Below, piece by piece: positions 1 to 28,558 of a stretch of DNA of 28,787 nucleotides (its first letter is position 1; each line of letters opens with the position of its first letter). A program made the translations under genes and the position numbers. The notes beneath the pieces were generated by a model. That model made no database searches and was not told the DNA's origin. It saw nothing but the letters and a program-made list of their open reading frames with translations. Origin of the DNA: a virus; IMG/VR virus record IMGVR_UViG_3300025120_000376, positions 1-28,787 of that record, one strand, 5' to 3'.

Positions 1-6
1 TTGTAA

Positions 7-20
7 ATATATAAACAAAT
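7..20 (+). promoter_or_regulatory. Candidate phage late promoter before the amidoligase-like gene
   Basis: The 14-mer ATATATAAACAAAT ends 10 bases before the start codon at 31. The identical 14-mer occurs at 27140-27153, 11 bases before another start codon. Its core TATAAACA resembles the T4 late promoter TATAAATA. If it works like the T4 element, the leader would be only about 8 bases. A Shine-Dalgarno-like AGGA lies at 22-25, one of the few in this window. The promoter role is inferred from position and recurrence in very AT-rich DNA. Confidence 0.35.
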
Positions 21-30
21 CAGGAACTAC

Positions 31-1323
31 ATGTACTCTAACGAACAATTAAATGCAATATACTCTTCCAAGATTGGATTAGAATTTGAATTCTTTGCAA
101 ATGAAGGATTAGAAGAAGTTAAACATAGCTTGTCTAATGTTTTAAATAAGCAAATCCGAATAGAAGAAAAGGCCCATAGTGAGTTTACTCCTACTGATGA
201 AATCTTTAAACTAGAACCTGATAATTCAGGTGGAACTGGTATGATTGAATTAGTCACTGGCCCTATGCCTTTTGTTGAATCTAAATTAGTTATAGCAAAA
301 ACTTTAAAATGGATAAGAGAAAATGGGTCTACTAATGATAGATGCTCTATTCATATTAATGTTGCTTTTGATGGAAAAAAATTAGGTACTCCTGTTAATG
401 TTTCAAAATTAGATATTGGTAAATTTGTTTTAAATTTTAATGAAGAAAAAGTTTATGAAGCCTTTCCAAATAGAAAAGATTCAGTTTATGCAAAATCTAT
501 AAAATTTATAGTTCCTCTTAGTGGTATGACACAAAGATCCCCGGAGAAAAGATTATGGAAAAATTATATGTTTGTTACTGAAAAGTATTATGGTGTTAAT
601 TTTTCTAAGTTACCTAAAAATTATATTGAATTTAGATATCTTGGTGGTAAAGATTATGAAAATAGATATAATTCTATAATGGATCTTACTGAGCATTTTG
701 TATTATCTTTATATGAGAGTTTAATGAATCCGCAATATTCTAAAGATGATCTTAAAATACTAGATAGTTTATTAGAAAAGCATAAAGGAGTTATACAATC
801 ATATAAAAGTTATCAATCATTTAAAGAAACTTTTCCTAATATAAATTTAATGGTTGATCTAAAAACATATGATCAAATAGTAGAAATGTATTATCCTAAA
901 ATGAGAGAAAAAATATTTGAACTTTTAACAAAGGCTGATATGAAGAAAGGTTTAATTAATTATGATTCAGATACAGGTAGAATACAAATAAAGGATGCCG
1001 AGCTCATGAGGTGTTTTGAATTATCAGGATTTGATGTTGTAGATAGTAAAATACAAGGAAATATTATTAGGTGTGATATTTTTAGTTGTGAATTAATAAA
1101 TACTTCAATGACTGAATGTAATCTGTTTGGTGGTACTGATGTAAGTGATTCTAAAATAGAAGATTCATATGTAGCTAGAAATGTTATATGTAAAGATTCT
1201 TACGTGTTTGGAATGAGAGGGGTATTTAGCGGTGAAATGGAAGGTGGTATTTTCAGAAAAGGAAGGGCAACTAAGTTGGCTAGATTTGAAAATACTGAAA
1301 TAATAGAATTAGAAAAAATATAA
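31..1323 (+). CDS. Amidoligase-like (COOH-NH2 ligase) protein with C-terminal pentapeptide repeats
   Basis: Residues about 12-230 resemble the amidoligase_2 family, ATP-dependent COOH-NH2 ligases with a glutamine-synthetase-like fold. Visible signatures are IGLEFEF at 15-21 (E18, E20), GMIELVTGP at 70-78 (E73), CSIHINVAF at 105-113 (H108, N110) and YIEFRYLGG at 198-206 (E200, R202). These match the acidic metal-binding strands, the HxN strand and the ExR strand expected of the family. A helical stretch follows at about 235-310. Residues about 338-425 then show pentapeptide repeats of the [C/S/T/A][D/N/E/S][I/L/M]xx type, clearest at CDIFS, CELIN, TSMTE and CNLFG (348-367). This predicts a right-handed beta-helix. 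The family joins amines to carboxylates; the substrate here is unknown, with peptidoglycan peptides or a virion protein as guesses. It starts 7 bases before the structural genes and sits behind a candidate late promoter. The family call is good; the role is open. Confidence 0.65.
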   Translation: MYSNEQLNAIYSSKIGLEFEFFANEGLEEVKHSLSNVLNKQIRIEEKAHSEFTPTDEIFKLEPDNSGGTGMIELVTGPMPFVESKLVIAKTLKWIRENGSTNDRCSIHINVAFDGKKLGTPVNVSKLDIGKFVLNFNEEKVYEAFPNRKDSVYAKSIKFIVPLSGMTQRSPEKRLWKNYMFVTEKYYGVNFSKLPKNYIEFRYLGGKDYENRYNSIMDLTEHFVLSLYESLMNPQYSKDDLKILDSLLEKHKGVIQSYKSYQSFKETFPNINLMVDLKTYDQIVEMYYPKMREKIFELLTKADMKKGLINYDSDTGRIQIKDAELMRCFELSGFDVVDSKIQGNIIRCDIFSCELINTSMTECNLFGGTDVSDSKIEDSYVARNVICKDSYVFGMRGVFSGEMEGGIFRKGRATKLARFENTEIIELEKI

Positions 1324-1329
1324 AATAGT

Positions 1330-2193
1330 ATGGCTAATAAGAATACTTATTGTAATGATCCAGATGAAGCAGCATGCTTAGATGCATTAATAAAGGAAAT
1401 TAATGATGATCTAACTATTGCTTGTCAAATACCATTCACAGTCCCTAAAAAAGAATTAGCTCATATTATACAAAGAGCAAAAGGTTACTTTTATAAAATT
1501 TATGAAGATAGTGTAGAGCAGATGTATATTGCTTTACCTGCAGGTGCTGTTAATAAAACAGATTTTAAACAAGGAGTTCCTTATGGTAGTGGAAAGGATA
1601 AGGAAACTATAACCAATAAAGCTAATATCGCAAATCCTAGGGGTATCGTACAAATGCCTTCTAGAGTTTATTCAGTTAATGATGTATTTGAAATTGGTGG
1701 ATTTAGTGGTGAAGATGGAGGATTTGGTAGTATGAGTTTTAATGCAGGTGATGTTGACTTTTCAATTGATAAGTTTATTTATGATGATGTTTATGGTGCA
1801 GGTATTGGTAGTGAAAATTTAATGTATTATGTTGTTAATTCATTATTTATGGATAATGCAAGACAAGTTCTATTACCACAAATATCATATACTTATAATA
1901 GATTAACAAAGAAATTTAGATTTCAAGGAGAATTGCCTAAAAGAGCTGTAATCTTTGAAATATTTTCAACTATTCCTGACTGTGCATTATTTCAAGATGA
2001 GGCATTTGTTAGATATGTTATCGGACAGGCTAAAATACAATTAGCTAGAATATTAGGAACATTCTCATTTAATTTACCAGGTAATATTACTATTAATTAT
2101 GATTTAATTTCATCTGAAGGAAGGGAAGAAGTTGATCGAGTAGTTGAAGAAATAAAGGGTGATGAAGGTGTTGACTACTTTTTTACTGGATAA
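1330..2193 (+). CDS. Virion structural protein, neck/connector type
   Basis: This 287-aa protein has no motif that names it outright. The N-terminal 60 residues look helical and acidic. The middle (about 95-150) is Gly/Ser/Asp-rich, with runs such as GGFSGEDGGFGSM. The C-terminal third holds a patterned segment (about 188-275) in which a beta-rich stretch is followed by FVRYVIGQAKIQLARILG, then a short LPGNITINYD strand and an acidic helix. I associate that C-terminal layout with head-neck or tail-connector proteins of divergent T4-like phages, but this is recollection of pattern, not a search result. It lies 6 bases after the amidoligase gene and 58 bases before gp25, which supports a virion role. 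The start codon has an A-rich leader and no Shine-Dalgarno. Confidence 0.5.
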   Translation: MANKNTYCNDPDEAACLDALIKEINDDLTIACQIPFTVPKKELAHIIQRAKGYFYKIYEDSVEQMYIALPAGAVNKTDFKQGVPYGSGKDKETITNKANIANPRGIVQMPSRVYSVNDVFEIGGFSGEDGGFGSMSFNAGDVDFSIDKFIYDDVYGAGIGSENLMYYVVNSLFMDNARQVLLPQISYTYNRLTKKFRFQGELPKRAVIFEIFSTIPDCALFQDEAFVRYVIGQAKIQLARILGTFSFNLPGNITINYDLISSEGREEVDRVVEEIKGDEGVDYFFTG

Positions 2194-2251: not shown

Positions 2252-2614
2252 ATGATTAGAGATATTTATAGTAGAGACATTGATGCTCCTAAGTATGATA
2301 ATACTGCGTTAGAAGTAACTGATGAGTTGTCTCAGCTAATTCTTAAAATTGAAAATTGCCTTTTTACAAGAAGAGGGGAAGTTTTGGGAGTACCTAATTT
2401 AGGAGCTAATTTAGAAGATTTAATTTTTTCATTAGTTTTAAATGAGACAGTTATACAAAATACAATAAATAGTCAAATAACAGCTTACTGTTTGGCTAAT
2501 AGCGGTGGTTTTAGTATTGATACTAAAGTTACTTTTTATTCAACGGCAGAAGTAAATGGGTGTTTAGTTGATATTTTTGTAAATGAACAAAGAGTTATAG
2601 GAGCTCTTTTTTAA
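2252..2614 (+). CDS. 25: Baseplate wedge subunit, gp25-like
   Basis: At 120 aa this is close to T4 gp25 (132 aa) and fits the GPW/gp25 family of contractile-tail baseplates, where the protein sits in the wedge core beside gp6 and contacts the sheath. The recognisable segment is residues 42-60, GEVLGVPNLGANLEDLIFS, the counterpart of the family's conserved stretch leading into NLG-x-x-L-x-D-L-I/L-F. A helix at about 63-80 and a beta-rich C-terminus follow as expected. The exact EPR triad often seen before this stretch is degenerate here (RRGEV). It is followed 13 bases later by the gp6-like gene, the usual partner. The start has no Shine-Dalgarno (TTCTCCC before ATG). Confidence 0.85.
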   Translation: MIRDIYSRDIDAPKYDNTALEVTDELSQLILKIENCLFTRRGEVLGVPNLGANLEDLIFSLVLNETVIQNTINSQITAYCLANSGGFSIDTKVTFYSTAEVNGCLVDIFVNEQRVIGALF

Positions 2615-2627
2615 AATAATAAATTGA

Positions 2628-4484
2628 ATGTCATTCTTTAGTAAAACCAGAATAAGAGCCACAGAATTATTTGCAGATTCATTTGAGTACTTACAGCGTA
2701 CTTATGATCAGGCACGTGAAACATTTACTCCTGCTTCACCATTTGGTCAAATTTTAACCGTGGTTGCTAACTTAGGAGAAATGATTTTCTTTTACATAGA
2801 AGCGGTTGCTACTGAACTAAATATATCCAGAGCAAGAAACATTGAATCTATCTATGGATTATCTAGACTTACTGGACATGACCCTACACGAGGTATATCA
2901 GCAAGAGGTATAATTGGATTGCGATTAAACACAAGTGCATCTACCCTCTTAAATGGTGATTATGTTCAAATTATGAATGGTGCTAGTTTTGAAATAGGAA
3001 ACAATGGCCTAACATATTTTTTAAGATTTAACAGTGACTTTATTAGACTTGATAAAACCACAAAGACTTTTGTTAATGTTGAAGTTATACAAGGAGAAAA
3101 AGAAGATCAAAGTTTTACTGGAACTGGTTTACCATTGCAGAGTTATAATTTAACTACAAAAGATCCTACTGATCAATACTTAGTAGAGGTTTTTGTAGAT
3201 GGAAAATTATGGAAATTGGTTGATTCTCTGTATGATATGAATAATGGTGAAGAATGTGCAATGATTAAAACTAGTGTTAATGGCGGCTTAAGTGTATTTT
3301 TTGGTAATAATCAATTTGGTATGCCACCTGCATTAGGATCAAGAATTAGAATTACATATATAAAGACTCGAGGTAGTGCCGGAAATATTGGAGGTAAACA
3401 ATTAGATATTAAATTTTCAACTGAAGGTGCTGATTCATCAGGGGAACAAGTAGATCTTAATGAAATACTTTCTTTAAATATTGTAAGAAACCCAAACTTT
3501 GGATCGGATTCAGAAGATCCTAATTTTACAAGATTAATAGCACCATACCAAAGTAATTCATTTGTGTTAGCAAATCCTAATAATTATATTTACTATTTAA
3601 GTAAGTATGACTTTTGGTCTTTTATAGATGCTTATAATACTAAAAATGATCAATATTTGGATGATGATAATATTATTTACTTATTTTTAATTCCTGATGT
3701 AAAGAAAAAACTAACGAGTGATTTAGATTATTTTAGTATTCCTGAAGTAGAATTTTCAATGACTGATGCTGAAAAGGAACAAACTTTAGAAATAATTAAT
3801 AAAAGTGGAAGACAGGTTGTTACAGCAGAAGTTAGAATTAAAGATCCTATAATTAGAAGATATGCTCTTAATATTGTAGTAAGATGGTTTGCAAACTATG
3901 ATAAAGATGCTATACGAATCGAAATAAGAAAAAATTTAGATGAATATTTTTTAAATGTAAATAGAAGAGATAGAATTCCAAGATCTGATATTATTTCTAT
4001 TATTGAAAACGTTGAAGGAATTGATTCTGTAAATGTATTTTTTATATCAGAGCAAAATGAAGAAGCTATTAGAAATGGTTTTTATTTTGTACCTGTTTAT
4101 GGAACAGATCCTGTGACAGATCAAAAGGTATTAATAGAAAATAAAAAAATAGTATTAACTGCTGATGAAGATCCGCAATTAGGATTAGATAGTTTTGGTG
4201 ATGTTATTATTGAAAACGATGAGTTAGCAATAATACGAGGAGGTTGGAAAGATAGAAATGGTACGTACTATGAACCTATACCTGAGGCTAATACAATAAG
4301 TTCTCTTAACGTATTCTATAAAGAAGCTATTACCGATAATCTTTATAATAAAACTCAACAGGCGGCATTTAATAATACAAAAAGAAACCGAGGTACTACG
4401 ATTGCTACTGGTGCTAATTCTGCTGGGCTTAATACTGGTAGATTACAAGCCACTACAACATTAGAAGCACTTAAAGGAAAATAA
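2628..4484 (+). CDS. 6: Baseplate wedge subunit, gp6-like
   Basis: At 618 aa this is close to T4 gp6 (660 aa) and follows gp25 directly, the arrangement found across contractile-tail phages (gp6 in T4, gpJ in P2). The N-terminus is helical with an FGQILTVVANLGEMIFFYIE stretch (about 40-60), then the domain entry ARNIESIYGLSRLTGHDPTR (69-88). The gpJ-like core is the segment from about 395 to 490. There GRQVVTAEVRIKDP, an RxALNIVVRWF strand, IRIEIRKNLDEYF and PRSDIISIIENVEGIDSVNV form the typical strand-helix-strand pattern with a P-R-S-D turn. Gp6 dimers tie neighbouring wedges into the baseplate ring. The extra residues after about 500 are polar and low in complexity. Confidence 0.8.
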   Translation: MSFFSKTRIRATELFADSFEYLQRTYDQARETFTPASPFGQILTVVANLGEMIFFYIEAVATELNISRARNIESIYGLSRLTGHDPTRGISARGIIGLRLNTSASTLLNGDYVQIMNGASFEIGNNGLTYFLRFNSDFIRLDKTTKTFVNVEVIQGEKEDQSFTGTGLPLQSYNLTTKDPTDQYLVEVFVDGKLWKLVDSLYDMNNGEECAMIKTSVNGGLSVFFGNNQFGMPPALGSRIRITYIKTRGSAGNIGGKQLDIKFSTEGADSSGEQVDLNEILSLNIVRNPNFGSDSEDPNFTRLIAPYQSNSFVLANPNNYIYYLSKYDFWSFIDAYNTKNDQYLDDDNIIYLFLIPDVKKKLTSDLDYFSIPEVEFSMTDAEKEQTLEIINKSGRQVVTAEVRIKDPIIRRYALNIVVRWFANYDKDAIRIEIRKNLDEYFLNVNRRDRIPRSDIISIIENVEGIDSVNVFFISEQNEEAIRNGFYFVPVYGTDPVTDQKVLIENKKIVLTADEDPQLGLDSFGDVIIENDELAIIRGGWKDRNGTYYEPIPEANTISSLNVFYKEAITDNLYNKTQQAAFNNTKRNRGTTIATGANSAGLNTGRLQATTTLEALKGK

Positions 4485-11737: not shown

Positions 11738-14700
11738 ATGGCTGAAAATAATTCAATACAAACACTACTACCTGAGCTGTTAAGACTTTTTAACAATTCA
11801 TTGGAGAGCTTCGAGAAAGTGAATCAAGCTATTACTTCAAGTAGAGATTCCGTGACGGTTAATATACAAAACCAAAACGGTACCAATTCTCGTGTCACTA
11901 TTCCAAGTTTTGGTTATTTAAAAAATTCAGTTGATAGATTACAAACAAATATTAATACTATAACTAATTTAACTGGTTCGGATAGCTCTATTAGATTAGC
12001 AGATGGTACCTTTAGAAAATTAGTATTAGCTAAACTTCCAACAGAGGCCGCTGATTTAACTACAATGACTTCTGTTAATGAATTTAGTGTTAAGCCTAAT
12101 TGGTTTTTTGAAGAATTAATTAATCCTTTATTATTTGTTTCTTTTGATATAACTGGACAGGCTCCAATTGATACTGAAAGAACAATTGTTAAAAGATTTA
12201 TATTAGATACTAATACACAAAGCAAAATAAATTTCTTTGATTCAAATTACAATGGAATTGCAAACATTGACTATAATACCTTTTTACAACAAATAGTTGA
12301 AAAAAATATTTCTTATGTATTAGATGAAGCTGTTGTAGACTTACCACCTAGAGATTTAAGATATTCCGGTAATTTTGGTGTAACTAGAATTGGTGAAGAA
12401 AGCGTTACAGAAACCGTTAATGGTGTTCAGCAAACAACAGTTCAAAAATTATATAAACTTAACAAAACATTTTATTCCGATTCTGAGGCTGATTTTAATG
12501 ATACTGTTCAACTTAAAGTTGGTGATAGTTTAGAAGTAATATCAGATCCTATAGATACACGATATACAGTAACACAAATTGATACCAGTACAAACTCAAT
12601 TATAGTAAGATTACAAGAAGGTAGTAGGACTATAAGTATTGGTGCTGATATTTTAAAAATAGGATCGTCTCTTAATGAAGAATTAGCGGTAGATGTTACT
12701 GTTGGATTTGGTGAAAGATGTGTAACTTTTATTAAACCTATTGATCCAGATTCTAAAATACCTGCAGTTAATTGGTCACCAGGTAGTGGTTTTTATACTA
12801 ATGATTTAAACACAATAGATGCATCAGGTAACCAACAGTCTTTAGCTGATTATTACCAACAGAGCGCGGTAGATTTTGGAAGATATTTATTATCATTTGC
12901 ACAAGATAAGATACCTACCAGTAAGGAAGGGTTAACACCTAATGCGCCTAGCATTGCATCTGATGATTTTAACGTATCTTTAATAAATGGACAGATTAGT
13001 AATTCTGATGCAATTGTTCAACTCAAGGATTTAAATAATCAAAAAAATACTATTCAAGCTACTTTAACAGAGCTTGATACTGCAATAGCACAAAGCAGAA
13101 CTAAAATACAAACTACAAATTACTCTACTGAAGTAGAAAGAGATGCTGATAAAAATGCTTTACAAGGCCTTATTACTGAAAGAGGATCACAAGCTAAACT
13201 ATATTCTTCAGTAGTAACTGAAATAGATTCATCTGCACAAGACAATTCTGTTAATAGTGTAACACCTAAATATAGAGTTAGAGGATTTTGGGCAATGCCC
13301 GAAGAAAAATCGGCTCCAGCTACTGGGGTACAAGATATTGTTAAATTTAAATATAGATATAGATATTTATCAGCTGACGGTGCTGCAAATGCAGTAGACC
13401 AATTTACATTTACAGATGGTAGTGGAACAAGCCAAGGTGCATTTTCTAATTATGTAATAGTGGATAGTGTATTAAGACCAAGGACAAAAAATCCGATAAC
13501 TGGATTATACGAATGGGTTCCAATTGATGATGATAATGCAGATTCGATAAATATTAATCAATTAGACATCCCTATTAGAAAGGGCGAACAGGTAGAGATA
13601 CAAGTAAAATCTATATCCGAGGCTGGGTGGCCATCTAATCCTTTAGAGAGTGAATGGAGTAATTCAGTAAGAGTAGAGTTTCCTGCCGATTTAAGTTCTG
13701 ATAATGCCATTGAATCTATACTTGCCCAAAACCAAGAAGATCTTGCGAAAGTTTCACTGGAAGAAGATTTAGAGGCAAAAGGTTTAAATACACACTTAAG
13801 TAGTTCATTCACTGCAAACGAAACATATTTCGCGCATTCGTCTCCAGTCATTGCATCAGGATTTTTATCAGAAAACCAAACACCAATTGATTTATTTAGT
13901 AAATTAAATGAAATGCAAAGCCAATTAGATTTATTTGCAGAAATATTAAATAATGCACAAGGTGAATTAGTAACTACATTAGTAGATGATCAAGGTAATA
14001 CGATTAATTTAAGAAGAAATTCTGTAACTAAAGTTTTTGCTGGTTTTTATTCACAGGAGGTTAATGGTTTAGATGACCCAAGAGGTGCTGTAATTACAAA
14101 AACTTATTTTATTAATATCGGAAATAGAGAACAAACAGTTCTTCAATTATTGTCTAGAATTACAGGAAACAGAAGTAGAATGGTTAAACAATCTGAAAAC
14201 CCTGGATATAATATTGCTGACATAGAAAATGGTTCAACTATTTTACCAGCTACATATTCATGGCTAGATGATAGTGCAATTAATCAAAAAAATGGGAGAG
14301 CTACATATAGGGCAGATGATCAAGATTATAATACAATTAGAAAATATGATCTTACACCTATACTATTAACAAACCCAACGGTAACAGCAACTACTAAATA
14401 TGGCCAAATGGTTTCCACTGCGCCATATCAATCTACACAAAATAGAAATCAATTTATTTACAGTAGGTATAGCGATGTATCGGCTGATGCAAACTTTTAT
14501 AATTATGTAAATCCAGCAAGCAATTATACATTTAATTTAGATTTACTAGAAAATTTTAATGATACTTCTTATAATGCTAATGCTATTCCAGCTACAGAGT
14601 TTATCTGGGCAGGTGGGTTTACTGCTTTAGGGTTTCCTACTACAACAGCTGCATACCCTATAAATGATGATGTTTTAGGTATTTCAATTGCTCACCCTTT

Positions 14701-15583
14701 TGTACAGACATTTGCTGCTTATCAAGCTGCATATGAAAGCTTAACCGGTGACACTGCTACCTTAGCAGGTTTATCTGGTGGTGTTGTTAATTGTACTACA
14801 AGTTCAGGTAATGGTACTGCCGCTGTATTATTTAGACAATCTAAATTTGCCCCATTAAAGATAGATGATTCAAAAGGAAAGGAGCAAGCAATATATTTAA
14901 ATGAAAATCTGACTGATCTTGTTGCATTATCAACAACTATTAACCCTAATTTTGATACAGGACAATCTCTTCAAGCTAGCCCATCAATGACAAGCGCTGC
15001 ACTTAATCCTCTTTGGTTGTCAACAGATCCTGATTATGTTAATTTTAGTAGAAATTCAAAAAACTCATTTGATGGTTTTGACCAATACACATTAGGAAAA
15101 AAATCAGTAGGTTCTTATTTATTCATATCTGCTGATGAACATGAAAATATTCAAGTAAATGGCGATTCTATACAATCAAAAAAATTAGTTCAATTTGGAC
15201 AACAAAATTCATTAAATATTCCATTAGTATTTCAATATAGAATGACTGATTACTTTGGTGTAACTACCGGTAGCGGTTTAGGTAATATTGGTGGTGATTC
15301 ATCAGGAGGAACCGTTAATTTAACTTATGCAAAGAAAATAGGTTTTGACATTTATCCTAATAATTCTGACGTGTACCAATTTGATATTGAGGTATTTGCA
15401 AAATATAGATCTGATAGATTAAGTATTGACGTTTTCCCTAAAGCAACTGTTACTAAAGGGCTAAATGATTTAGAGAAAGTAGTGGCTGGACTAAGGCCTT
15501 CTGTCAATCAAACTAATATTAGTAGAGCTAATGCTGTAGCTAATCTTACTAACGTTGACGGTGGTAATGGGCCTATAGCTTAA
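11738..15583 (+). CDS. Giant tail/baseplate structural protein with FN3-like domain and coiled coils
   Basis: A 1281-aa structural protein. The N-terminal 80 residues are helical and polar, including LLPELLRLFNNSLESFEKVN and DRLQTNINTITN, as in an oligomerisation stalk. A coiled-coil-compatible segment spans about 420-505 (LNNQKNTIQATLTELDTAIA). A fibronectin-III-like region lies at about 508-649, ending in EIQVKSISEAGWPSNPLESE and a final VRVEF strand. A second heptad-like helix is at about 712-750 (LFSKLNEMQSQLDLFAEILN). The C-terminal 500 residues are beta-rich without named motifs. It starts 22 bases after its upstream neighbour and belongs to the same structural run. I cannot match it to one T4 protein; gp10-like by order is only a suggestion. 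Confidence 0.55.
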   Translation: MAENNSIQTLLPELLRLFNNSLESFEKVNQAITSSRDSVTVNIQNQNGTNSRVTIPSFGYLKNSVDRLQTNINTITNLTGSDSSIRLADGTFRKLVLAKLPTEAADLTTMTSVNEFSVKPNWFFEELINPLLFVSFDITGQAPIDTERTIVKRFILDTNTQSKINFFDSNYNGIANIDYNTFLQQIVEKNISYVLDEAVVDLPPRDLRYSGNFGVTRIGEESVTETVNGVQQTTVQKLYKLNKTFYSDSEADFNDTVQLKVGDSLEVISDPIDTRYTVTQIDTSTNSIIVRLQEGSRTISIGADILKIGSSLNEELAVDVTVGFGERCVTFIKPIDPDSKIPAVNWSPGSGFYTNDLNTIDASGNQQSLADYYQQSAVDFGRYLLSFAQDKIPTSKEGLTPNAPSIASDDFNVSLINGQISNSDAIVQLKDLNNQKNTIQATLTELDTAIAQSRTKIQTTNYSTEVERDADKNALQGLITERGSQAKLYSSVVTEIDSSAQDNSVNSVTPKYRVRGFWAMPEEKSAPATGVQDIVKFKYRYRYLSADGAANAVDQFTFTDGSGTSQGAFSNYVIVDSVLRPRTKNPITGLYEWVPIDDDNADSININQLDIPIRKGEQVEIQVKSISEAGWPSNPLESEWSNSVRVEFPADLSSDNAIESILAQNQEDLAKVSLEEDLEAKGLNTHLSSSFTANETYFAHSSPVIASGFLSENQTPIDLFSKLNEMQSQLDLFAEILNNAQGELVTTLVDDQGNTINLRRNSVTKVFAGFYSQEVNGLDDPRGAVITKTYFINIGNREQTVLQLLSRITGNRSRMVKQSENPGYNIADIENGSTILPATYSWLDDSAINQKNGRATYRADDQDYNTIRKYDLTPILLTNPTVTATTKYGQMVSTAPYQSTQNRNQFIYSRYSDVSADANFYNYVNPASNYTFNLDLLENFNDTSYNANAIPATEFIWAGGFTALGFPTTTAAYPINDDVLGISIAHPFVQTFAAYQAAYESLTGDTATLAGLSGGVVNCTTSSGNGTAAVLFRQSKFAPLKIDDSKGKEQAIYLNENLTDLVALSTTINPNFDTGQSLQASPSMTSAALNPLWLSTDPDYVNFSRNSKNSFDGFDQYTLGKKSVGSYLFISADEHENIQVNGDSIQSKKLVQFGQQNSLNIPLVFQYRMTDYFGVTTGSGLGNIGGDSSGGTVNLTYAKKIGFDIYPNNSDVYQFDIEVFAKYRSDRLSIDVFPKATVTKGLNDLEKVVAGLRPSVNQTNISRANAVANLTNVDGGNGPIA

Positions 15584-26585: not shown

Positions 26586-27140
26586 ATGCTATTAAGTGCT
26601 AGAAATAATCAATTTAAATTTAATTTTCCAAGGAATTTTGTACCTAAAGAAATAGCAGCTAGATATAAACCCTTTCTTACACGAATACCAGGCGGTTTAA
26701 TTAAAGAACCTATTGATTTTTGGAACTATGGGATACAATCTATTAATTTACCTGGACCTTCATTTGACCCGGTACAACAAAATGATTTTCCTGGAAATAC
26801 TCGAAATTTTAGAGCAAGTGTTCCTAAGCAAGAATTATTTGATAAAAAGCTAACAGTAACAATGCAAGCATTTGATGGTTATGTTAATTATTGGATGGCT
26901 GTAGAAATGTTTGACTATTATTATAAACAAAATGGTAGGAATCCTTTTTTACCTGAAGGCGTAGGAATACAGATGTTAGATTCTGATGGTACAATCTTTG
27001 TTACTATTCAATTAAAGAATATGATTATGAATAATATTGGTGCATTGGATTTAAACTTTTCAAGTAACACTATTGAATTTGAAACTTTTGATATTGAATT
27101 TACTTATAACATTTTGGATATAGCAGTTAACATAACCTAA
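26586..27140 (+). CDS. Tail tube-fold protein (gp19- or gp54-like)
   Basis: A 184-aa protein, close to T4 gp19 (163 aa). The pattern fits the tail-tube family of contractile phages: an N-terminal arm with NNQFKFNFPRNF, a WNYGIQSINLPGPSFD strand-loop (residues 46-61) and a central KKLTVTMQAFDGYVNYWMAV strand-helix. It ends with a closing beta hairpin pair (GTIFVTIQLKNMIMNNIG and TIEFETFDIEFTYNIL). Tube proteins stack as hexameric rings around the DNA channel; T4 gp48 and gp54 share the fold at the baseplate end. This copy sits among baseplate-type genes, so it may be the tube initiator rather than the main tube protein. No second tube-like gene is in the window to compare. Confidence 0.6.
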   Translation: MLLSARNNQFKFNFPRNFVPKEIAARYKPFLTRIPGGLIKEPIDFWNYGIQSINLPGPSFDPVQQNDFPGNTRNFRASVPKQELFDKKLTVTMQAFDGYVNYWMAVEMFDYYYKQNGRNPFLPEGVGIQMLDSDGTIFVTIQLKNMIMNNIGALDLNFSSNTIEFETFDIEFTYNILDIAVNIT

Positions 27141-27153
27141 TATATAAACAAAT
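27140..27153 (+). promoter_or_regulatory. Candidate late promoter before the internal head protein gene
   Basis: ATATATAAACAAAT, identical over 14 bases to the element at 7-20 and placed almost the same distance before a start codon (11 versus 10 bases). It begins on the last base of the tube-like gene. Two identical copies in matching positions make this the best supported promoter candidate here, but no function has been shown. Confidence 0.4.
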
Positions 27154-27526: not shown

Positions 27527-28186
27527 ATGATAAATATAGGAATTGATTTTTCTTTAAATAGTCCAGGTGCATGTATAGAAACATCGGAGGGACAATACAA
27601 ATTCATAACATTTTTTAATTACGGTAATCGTATATGGGATGAGGAAGGTAAAAAAATACCTAAGGCATTCAGTGTTCATAAAGAACTGATGGATGATAAT
27701 GCTATTTTAGGATTTCCATACACAAGAGATGTAACAAGTAAAGATTTTTTACCTAGGGAACGTCAGAAGTTATATGATGCAGGAAATATTAGTTCTTTAA
27801 TGGTTAATGTTTTTTCTACTATGTTTGATGATGATGAAGTATCTGTTGCATTAGAAGGATTCTCTTATGGGTCTAAAGGAAATTCATTTATAGATATAAT
27901 TCAATACAATACTTTTTTAAGAAAGGAATTAATAGACAAATATACTGTAGAGAAATTATCAGTTTTTCAACCTTCTCATGTAAAAAAAATTGCAGGCAAA
28001 GGAAATGGAAATAAACATTATATGATAAAAGCATTCCAAGATGATGTTCTAAATGATAAGAACCTAAGGAGCACTAAACTTTGGAAATGGTGTAAAGGAA
28101 AAGACTTCAGCACAAAAATACCTAAACCTTTAGATGACCTAGTAGACAGCTACTTTATCGTACAAACTTTAAAGGCTAACAACTAG
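27527..28186 (+). CDS. ruvC: RuvC-like Holliday junction resolvase
   Basis: A 219-aa RNase H-fold nuclease of the RuvC type. The expected acidic residues are visible in order: D7 in NIGIDFSLNSPG, E110 in VALEGFSYG, and D204 with D207 in PLDDLVDSYF, giving the D-E-D-D set. The stretch FQPSHVKKIAGKGNGNK (147-163) matches the basic P-x-x-V-K-K...G-x-G loop before the last helices, which contacts DNA. Length is somewhat above bacterial RuvC (about 170), with an insertion at about 35-85. Such enzymes cut four-way junctions; in phages they clear recombination and replication branches before packaging, a job done by endonuclease VII (gp49) in T4. It lies 5 bases after the head-protein gene, so it is probably made late. 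Confidence 0.8.
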   Translation: MINIGIDFSLNSPGACIETSEGQYKFITFFNYGNRIWDEEGKKIPKAFSVHKELMDDNAILGFPYTRDVTSKDFLPRERQKLYDAGNISSLMVNVFSTMFDDDEVSVALEGFSYGSKGNSFIDIIQYNTFLRKELIDKYTVEKLSVFQPSHVKKIAGKGNGNKHYMIKAFQDDVLNDKNLRSTKLWKWCKGKDFSTKIPKPLDDLVDSYFIVQTLKANN

Positions 28187-28270: not shown

Positions 28271-28558
28271 ATGATAAAACCCTTAGGAAATAGAATATTT
28301 TTAAAAAAAGATGAGCAACCTGAAAAGAAAGGTGATATAATTTTATTAAAAAAGGATGGGATGTATGCTCCTCCTTATGCAGGTACTATTATTGGGATCG
28401 GTGATGAAGTTAAAGATAAAGAATATCAAATTGGGACAAAGGTTCTTTTTCATGACTTGGCGGGTATAGAATTTCAGCATAAGGAAGAAACTATATTTAG
28501 TTTAAGAGAAAGAGATATAACTGCAATTATTTTAGATAAAAATGTACAAGTAATCTGA
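28271..28558 (+). CDS. groES: GroES-like co-chaperonin (Cpn10 / gp31-type)
   Basis: At 95 aa this matches the Cpn10 family (E. coli GroES 97 aa, T4 gp31 111 aa). The opening IKPLGNRIFLKK matches the family's first strand. Residues 14-34 form the mobile loop, with the hydrophobic GroEL-binding tripeptide I-I-L at 23-25 (I-V-L in GroES). YAGTIIGIGDEV (36-47), IGTKVLFHDLAG (54-65) and the final SLRERDITAII strand complete the barrel. The protein caps host GroEL. T4 gp31 replaces GroES to fold the large capsid protein gp23, and a similar use is likely here. An 84-base gap with a host-like -7 element precedes it, unlike the tight spacing elsewhere, suggesting separate control. Confidence 0.9.
   Translation: MIKPLGNRIFLKKDEQPEKKGDIILLKKDGMYAPPYAGTIIGIGDEVKDKEYQIGTKVLFHDLAGIEFQHKEETIFSLRERDITAIILDKNVQVI

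Follow-up and report, generated by a model that had tools for sequence, protein, structure and literature searches.

A predicted amidoligase with a pentapeptide-like arm, encoded beside neck and baseplate genes in large phages

What could an amidoligase-like enzyme be doing beside the neck and baseplate genes of a phage? The question is raised by an open reading frame of 430 amino acids, with an ATG start, at positions 31..1323 (+ strand) of a 28,787-base virus record (the window, by which we mean the whole stretch of DNA analysed). The protein has hundreds of homologues and is predicted to join an Amidoligase_2 domain to a C-terminal pentapeptide-like beta-helix. Our tentative answer, to which we give a little less than an even chance, is that it may be an ATP (adenosine triphosphate)-dependent carboxylate-amine ligase, expressed together with the neck and baseplate genes, docked through its beta-helical arm and modifying a phage structural protein during assembly.

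The gene and its two predicted domains

The open reading frame is a genuine gene under purifying selection, since the ratio of non-synonymous to synonymous substitution rates (dN/dS) against close relatives is 0.09-0.13 in both halves of the gene. A scan with the window protein alone as the query matched 66 loci, and an alignment-based scan matched at least 470 viral-contig stretches. Uncultured phages 462-735 kb in size (LR756500-LR756504) carry relatives, and the fusion of enzyme and arm runs throughout the family. Relatives lacking the arm were detected in Agrobacterium phage Atu_ph07 and Salicola phage SCTP-2, the latter with two tandem, divergent amidoligase-like genes (gp125 and gp124; L073:9005-12765), both labelled hypothetical. 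Bacterial and archaeal genome contigs yielded only three relatives, all in metagenome-assembled genomes and possibly on phage contigs.

The N-terminal ~306 residues (residues 1-306; 31..948, + strand) are predicted to form an Amidoligase_2 domain of the glutamine synthetase superfamily (GS/GCS). The gathering score of Amidoligase_2 (PF12224), 22 bits, is exceeded by the relatives L056 (23.9), L050 (22.6) and Atu_ph07 gp196 (30.2), and 15 of the 55 family members compared with Pfam profiles matched it at E<=0.1 (best 6.6e-7). The window protein alone gave no Pfam match and nothing in a phmmer search of the PDB; its membership comes via relatives because it lies below detection by itself. The hhalign comparison of the family profile with the annotated amidoligase of a Porphyromonas phage (BK068099) gave probability 93 and E 3.1e-7, with D64/S66, E73, HxN, R148, K155 and ExR in register. 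A PF12224 search of genomes was blank even where the gene is known to be present, and its control was blank too, hence it is uninformative.

The structure models point the same way. AlphaFold gave the whole protein a mean predicted local distance difference test score (pLDDT) of 90.8 and a predicted template modelling score (pTM) of 0.85, and residues 1-306 a pLDDT of 89.2 and a pTM of 0.85. In Foldseek searches of the PDB, all 12 matches of the whole protein at E<=0.001 were glutamine synthetases, as were 19 of the top 20 for the N-terminal domain alone, the remaining one being a bifunctional glutathione synthetase; glutathione synthetases and gamma-glutamylcysteine synthetases are also among the PDB fold matches. 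Named matches among viral models were mostly amidoligases. The amidoligase domain and glutamine synthetase-like fold proposed in a first-pass annotation of the letters are thus borne out by these predicted models, in which glutamine synthetases lead the PDB matches at low TM-scores.

Residue conservation was followed in 59 non-redundant homologues, ~28-83% identical to the window protein. G16, E18, E20, D64, S66, E73, R148, N190, E200 and R202 are invariant in all 59. The predicted metal ligands E18 and E20 form the ExE motif (82..90, + strand); the predicted active-site residues D64, S66 and E73 (220..249, + strand) align with DSS...E of the Porphyromonas phage amidoligase; R148, a predicted phosphate-binding arginine (472..474, + strand), aligns with an arginine of that protein, and the ExR motif of E200 and R202 (628..636, + strand) with its EFR. 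H108 and N110 of the HxN motif (352..360, + strand) are kept in 56 of the 59 and replaced by Q and S in L128, L141 and L142, which carry QxS while retaining the other listed active-site positions. The first-pass annotation had named E18, E20, E73, H108, N110, E200 and R202, and all were found where it had placed them; far from varying freely, five of the seven are invariant. The order of ExE, acidic pair, histidine, arginine and ExR is reminiscent of the metal- and phosphate-binding residues of glutamine synthetase, as mapped by order and not by residue-level structural superposition.

The C-terminal ~120 residues (307-430; 949..1320, + strand) are predicted to fold as a pentapeptide-like beta-helix, an assignment well supported by the structure model and moderately by sequence. 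AlphaFold places short, evenly spaced strands at 307-429, with pLDDT mostly >90, and Foldseek matches the arm to the pentapeptide protein 6fls with probability 1.0. Among known structures, the family profile hits McbG-like proteins and MfpA (best 4.8e-6), with no lone stretch significant in the alignments shown. Pentapeptide_4 was matched at E<=0.1 by 33 of the 55 members (best 5.4e-6), while among the member scores listed the best match to PF00805/PF13599, at 26.8 bits, stayed below the gathering score of 38. R409 is invariant and lies in a GGxFRxG segment close to the C-terminal end. A search of the named phage collection with the arm domain returned only the same huge-phage proteins, never the domain apart from the enzyme. 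The amidoligase-pentapeptide fusion that the sequence had first suggested is therefore supported by the 6fls structure match and the weak Pentapeptide_4 profile matches; the repeats, originally placed in the last 90 residues, are indeed present and pentapeptide-like, but the helix is longer, with strands from ~307 to 429.

Neighbouring genes and the promoter-like motif

The enzyme gene sits in tail, neck and baseplate gene clusters in most clades. In the window it is followed by a gene for a T4 gp13-like neck protein (1330..2193, + strand; profile match to the PDB neck protein gp13, E 6e-8; phrog_211), the most persistent neighbour; then a gp25-like baseplate wedge or sheath initiator gene (2252..2614, + strand; weak Pfam and PHROG matches), near the enzyme in 26 of the 60 representatives used for neighbour counts; and a gp6-like baseplate wedge protein gene (2628..4484, + strand; phrog_219, E 1.4e-26). 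All or some of these three adjoin the enzyme gene in several clades, distant ones included (L113, L114, L128, L141, L142). L071, L075, L077 and L085 have gp13, with or without gp25, no more than a few kb away in a shuffled order, and most of the largest-phage clade has two other conserved genes close by, one with weak baseplate or sheath matches. At least one tracked neighbour family, mostly of neck, baseplate or tail type, was found nearby in 52 of the 60, a count that takes in some families of unknown function and has no formal chance expectation behind it. In a reverse search seeded with gp13, the enzyme flanked gp13 on the same strand at 80/80 loci of one clade. The location beside tail genes, noted in the first reading of the window, recurs in most clades.

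Between pairs of relatives the enzyme diverges in parallel with gp13, gp25 and gp6 (Mantel r 0.96-0.98). A core gene passed on vertically should behave in this way, but so should any set of co-inherited genes. This parallel divergence, the tail-module location and the Q/S replacements at H108/N110 would all suit a non-catalytic structural component of the neck or baseplate, built on a reused old enzyme fold. We give that alternative only a slight chance, because the ten active-site-type positions stay invariant in 59/59 while the remainder of the protein falls to ~30% identity.

Upstream, the neighbour is of another kind. A gene for an S1-domain protein lies 4-109 bp before the enzyme in most window-like and L115-like representatives, and also upstream of it in L068; ribosomal protein S1-like genes were seen near the amidoligase just outside the window at L012:6818-7957, L122:4586-5872 and L068:5538-6704. 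RimK adds glutamates to S6, and by analogy the enzyme could modify the translation machinery, with, for example, this S1-like phage protein or a ribosomal protein of the host as its target. With an S1 gene immediately preceding the enzyme in the window's clade, such a translation-related substrate is conceivable, and an S1-domain protein gene is present in 7/10 large genomes examined. In the 350-735 kb genomes, however, it lies tens to hundreds of kb away from the amidoligase, while tail-type genes stay close in many, and the S1 C-termini share no common acceptor tail; we therefore regard a translation-related target as improbable. Inspection of neighbour-protein C-termini in general also gave no obvious conserved acceptor tail.

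A promoter-like AATATATAAAC motif was detected just upstream of the enzyme gene (6..16, + strand) and is strongly enriched before genes of related phages. In window-like loci, 44 of the 164 genes have AATATATA <=60 nt upstream, against 1.4 expected from its overall rate; in huge-phage loci 109/377 do, against 5.7 expected. This expectation ignores intergenic A+T content, and the loci are mutually related. The late-type promoter suggested by the first-pass annotation is accordingly kept as a promoter-like motif but not as a T4 late promoter: TATAAATA occurs twice in the window, neither time close to the enzyme gene. The AATATATA(AAC) motif is also found at window positions 27139-27149; in the largest phages its end is often only 3-10 nt from the ATG, a spacing compatible with leaderless transcription.

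Other genes of the window were recorded as well. The region 11738-15583 encodes a 1281-residue protein whose PHROG match is phrog_29329 (E 7e-147; unknown function); in L107 a relative adjoins the amidoligase. A GroES-like co-chaperonin gene (28271-28558; Cpn10 E 2e-11) and a RuvC-like resolvase gene (27527-28186) are located near a tail-tube-like gene (26586-27140).

Candidate activity and substrate

We infer from sequence motifs and the predicted model that the protein has ATP-dependent carboxylate-amine ligase activity. E18, E20, D64, E73 and E200, with H108, would bind metal ions and ATP, and R148, K155 and R202 would stabilise the phosphates; the carboxylate would be phosphorylated and then attacked by the amine, giving an amide or isopeptide bond. 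Expression of the enzyme gene probably coincides with that of the neck and baseplate genes. The beta-helical arm, with its conserved FRxG end, most likely serves as a docking part that keeps the enzyme on a protein partner, and a structural protein would then be modified during tail or neck assembly. That this substrate is a virion protein is our guess, favoured by gene order.

Several results weigh against this reading. The TM-scores against glutamine synthetases are low (0.29-0.42) with a large root-mean-square deviation, as expected for remote relatives, and the hhalign comparison with E. coli GlnA by itself was not significant. Three members have lost the HxN motif. Four gp13 relatives of another clade (L162-L165) have no enzyme within 6 kb; L070, L074, L076, L080, L081, L108 and L112 have no tracked neighbours in the stretch read; and what immediately precedes the enzyme in the window's clade is an S1-domain gene, not one for a virion protein.

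A different substrate class was also considered. The enzyme could make or modify a small molecule or a host cell-wall peptide, for example as a superinfection block of the kind proposed for the phiEco32 amidoligase. Cell-wall or metabolite roles are suggested for other phage amidoligases in two papers (PMC10580990, PMC11318856, both citing Iyer et al. 2009), and a GGCT-like gene is located near amidoligases of other phages. A gamma-glutamylamine cyclotransferase (GGACT) gene was detected in 4/8 large genomes (one gene each in those of L069, L070, L080 and L112), far from the amidoligase. Against such a role, the enzyme gene is ordered with neck and baseplate genes and the pentapeptide arm suggests a macromolecular partner. 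Furthermore, GATase_6 was found neither in eight large genomes (control positive 14/14) nor among the scanned window proteins, ATP-grasp not having been searched genome-wide. We consider the metabolite or cell-wall role possible but doubtful.

Returning to a structural-protein substrate, a more specific version is that in this widespread large-phage lineage the arm-steered amidoligase covalently matures the contractile tail, giving a neck or baseplate protein isopeptide bonds or tagging it with amino acids. We hold this version to be rather unlikely as it stands, and we know of no precedent for covalent maturation by an enzyme during the assembly of contractile tails. Should a tail or neck protein indeed be tagged or cross-linked by the enzyme, tail maturation in large phages would include a covalent step that recalls the cross-linking of the HK97 capsid, except that an ATP-dependent ligase would carry it out; the protein would possibly also be a new protein-ligating enzyme. 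The family is common in metagenomes, and gene order offers gp13, gp25 and gp6 as candidate substrates, so the substrate question is testable.

Comparison with known systems

At the level of fold, glutamine synthetase and glutamate-cysteine ligase belong to a common class with the window protein, and their acidic residues, histidine and ExR are alike by sequence order; the window protein is shorter and has no significant sequence match to them. In structure, and in weak profile matches, the arm resembles pentapeptide-repeat proteins (6fls, MfpA, Qnr), but it is short (~120 residues), its repeats are loose and it ends in the conserved GGxFRxG segment.

Among phage proteins, Atu_ph07 gp196 and the Porphyromonas phage amidoligase share the Amidoligase_2 domain, with its ExE, D.S...E, HxN, R and ExR motifs. 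The Atu_ph07 and SCTP-2 proteins are without the pentapeptide-like arm and have an N-terminal insertion, and no neck or baseplate module adjoins the Atu_ph07 copy. According to the Atu_ph07 paper, CDS 170-215, which contains gp196, is one of three clusters holding most of the virion proteins detected by mass spectrometry (PMC6102473). The amidoligases of LUZ24/PaP3-like phages (UFV-P2 ORF23, Pseudomonas phage tf) and phiEco32 are of the same family as the window protein, and that of Pseudomonas phage tf (I2FLP2) is among its fold matches. The phage amidoligases described in the literature belong to the early region, where glutamine amidotransferase and ATP-grasp proteins are their partners, whereas the window family has tail-type neighbours. 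The literature, represented mostly by titles and the openings of abstracts, gave no amidoligase fused to pentapeptide repeats or acting in tail assembly.

The amidoligase family itself and its presence in phages are already known. The two-part architecture is also public, as the unannotated UniProt entry A0A6J5PQ40, an uncharacterized protein of an uncultured Caudovirales phage, which is a full-length fold match and the best among viral models (TM 0.89/0.87, 25% identity). The novelty lies in recognising, in large phages, a conserved amidoligase lineage that bears an arm, is linked to tail genes and differs from the published early-region enzymes.
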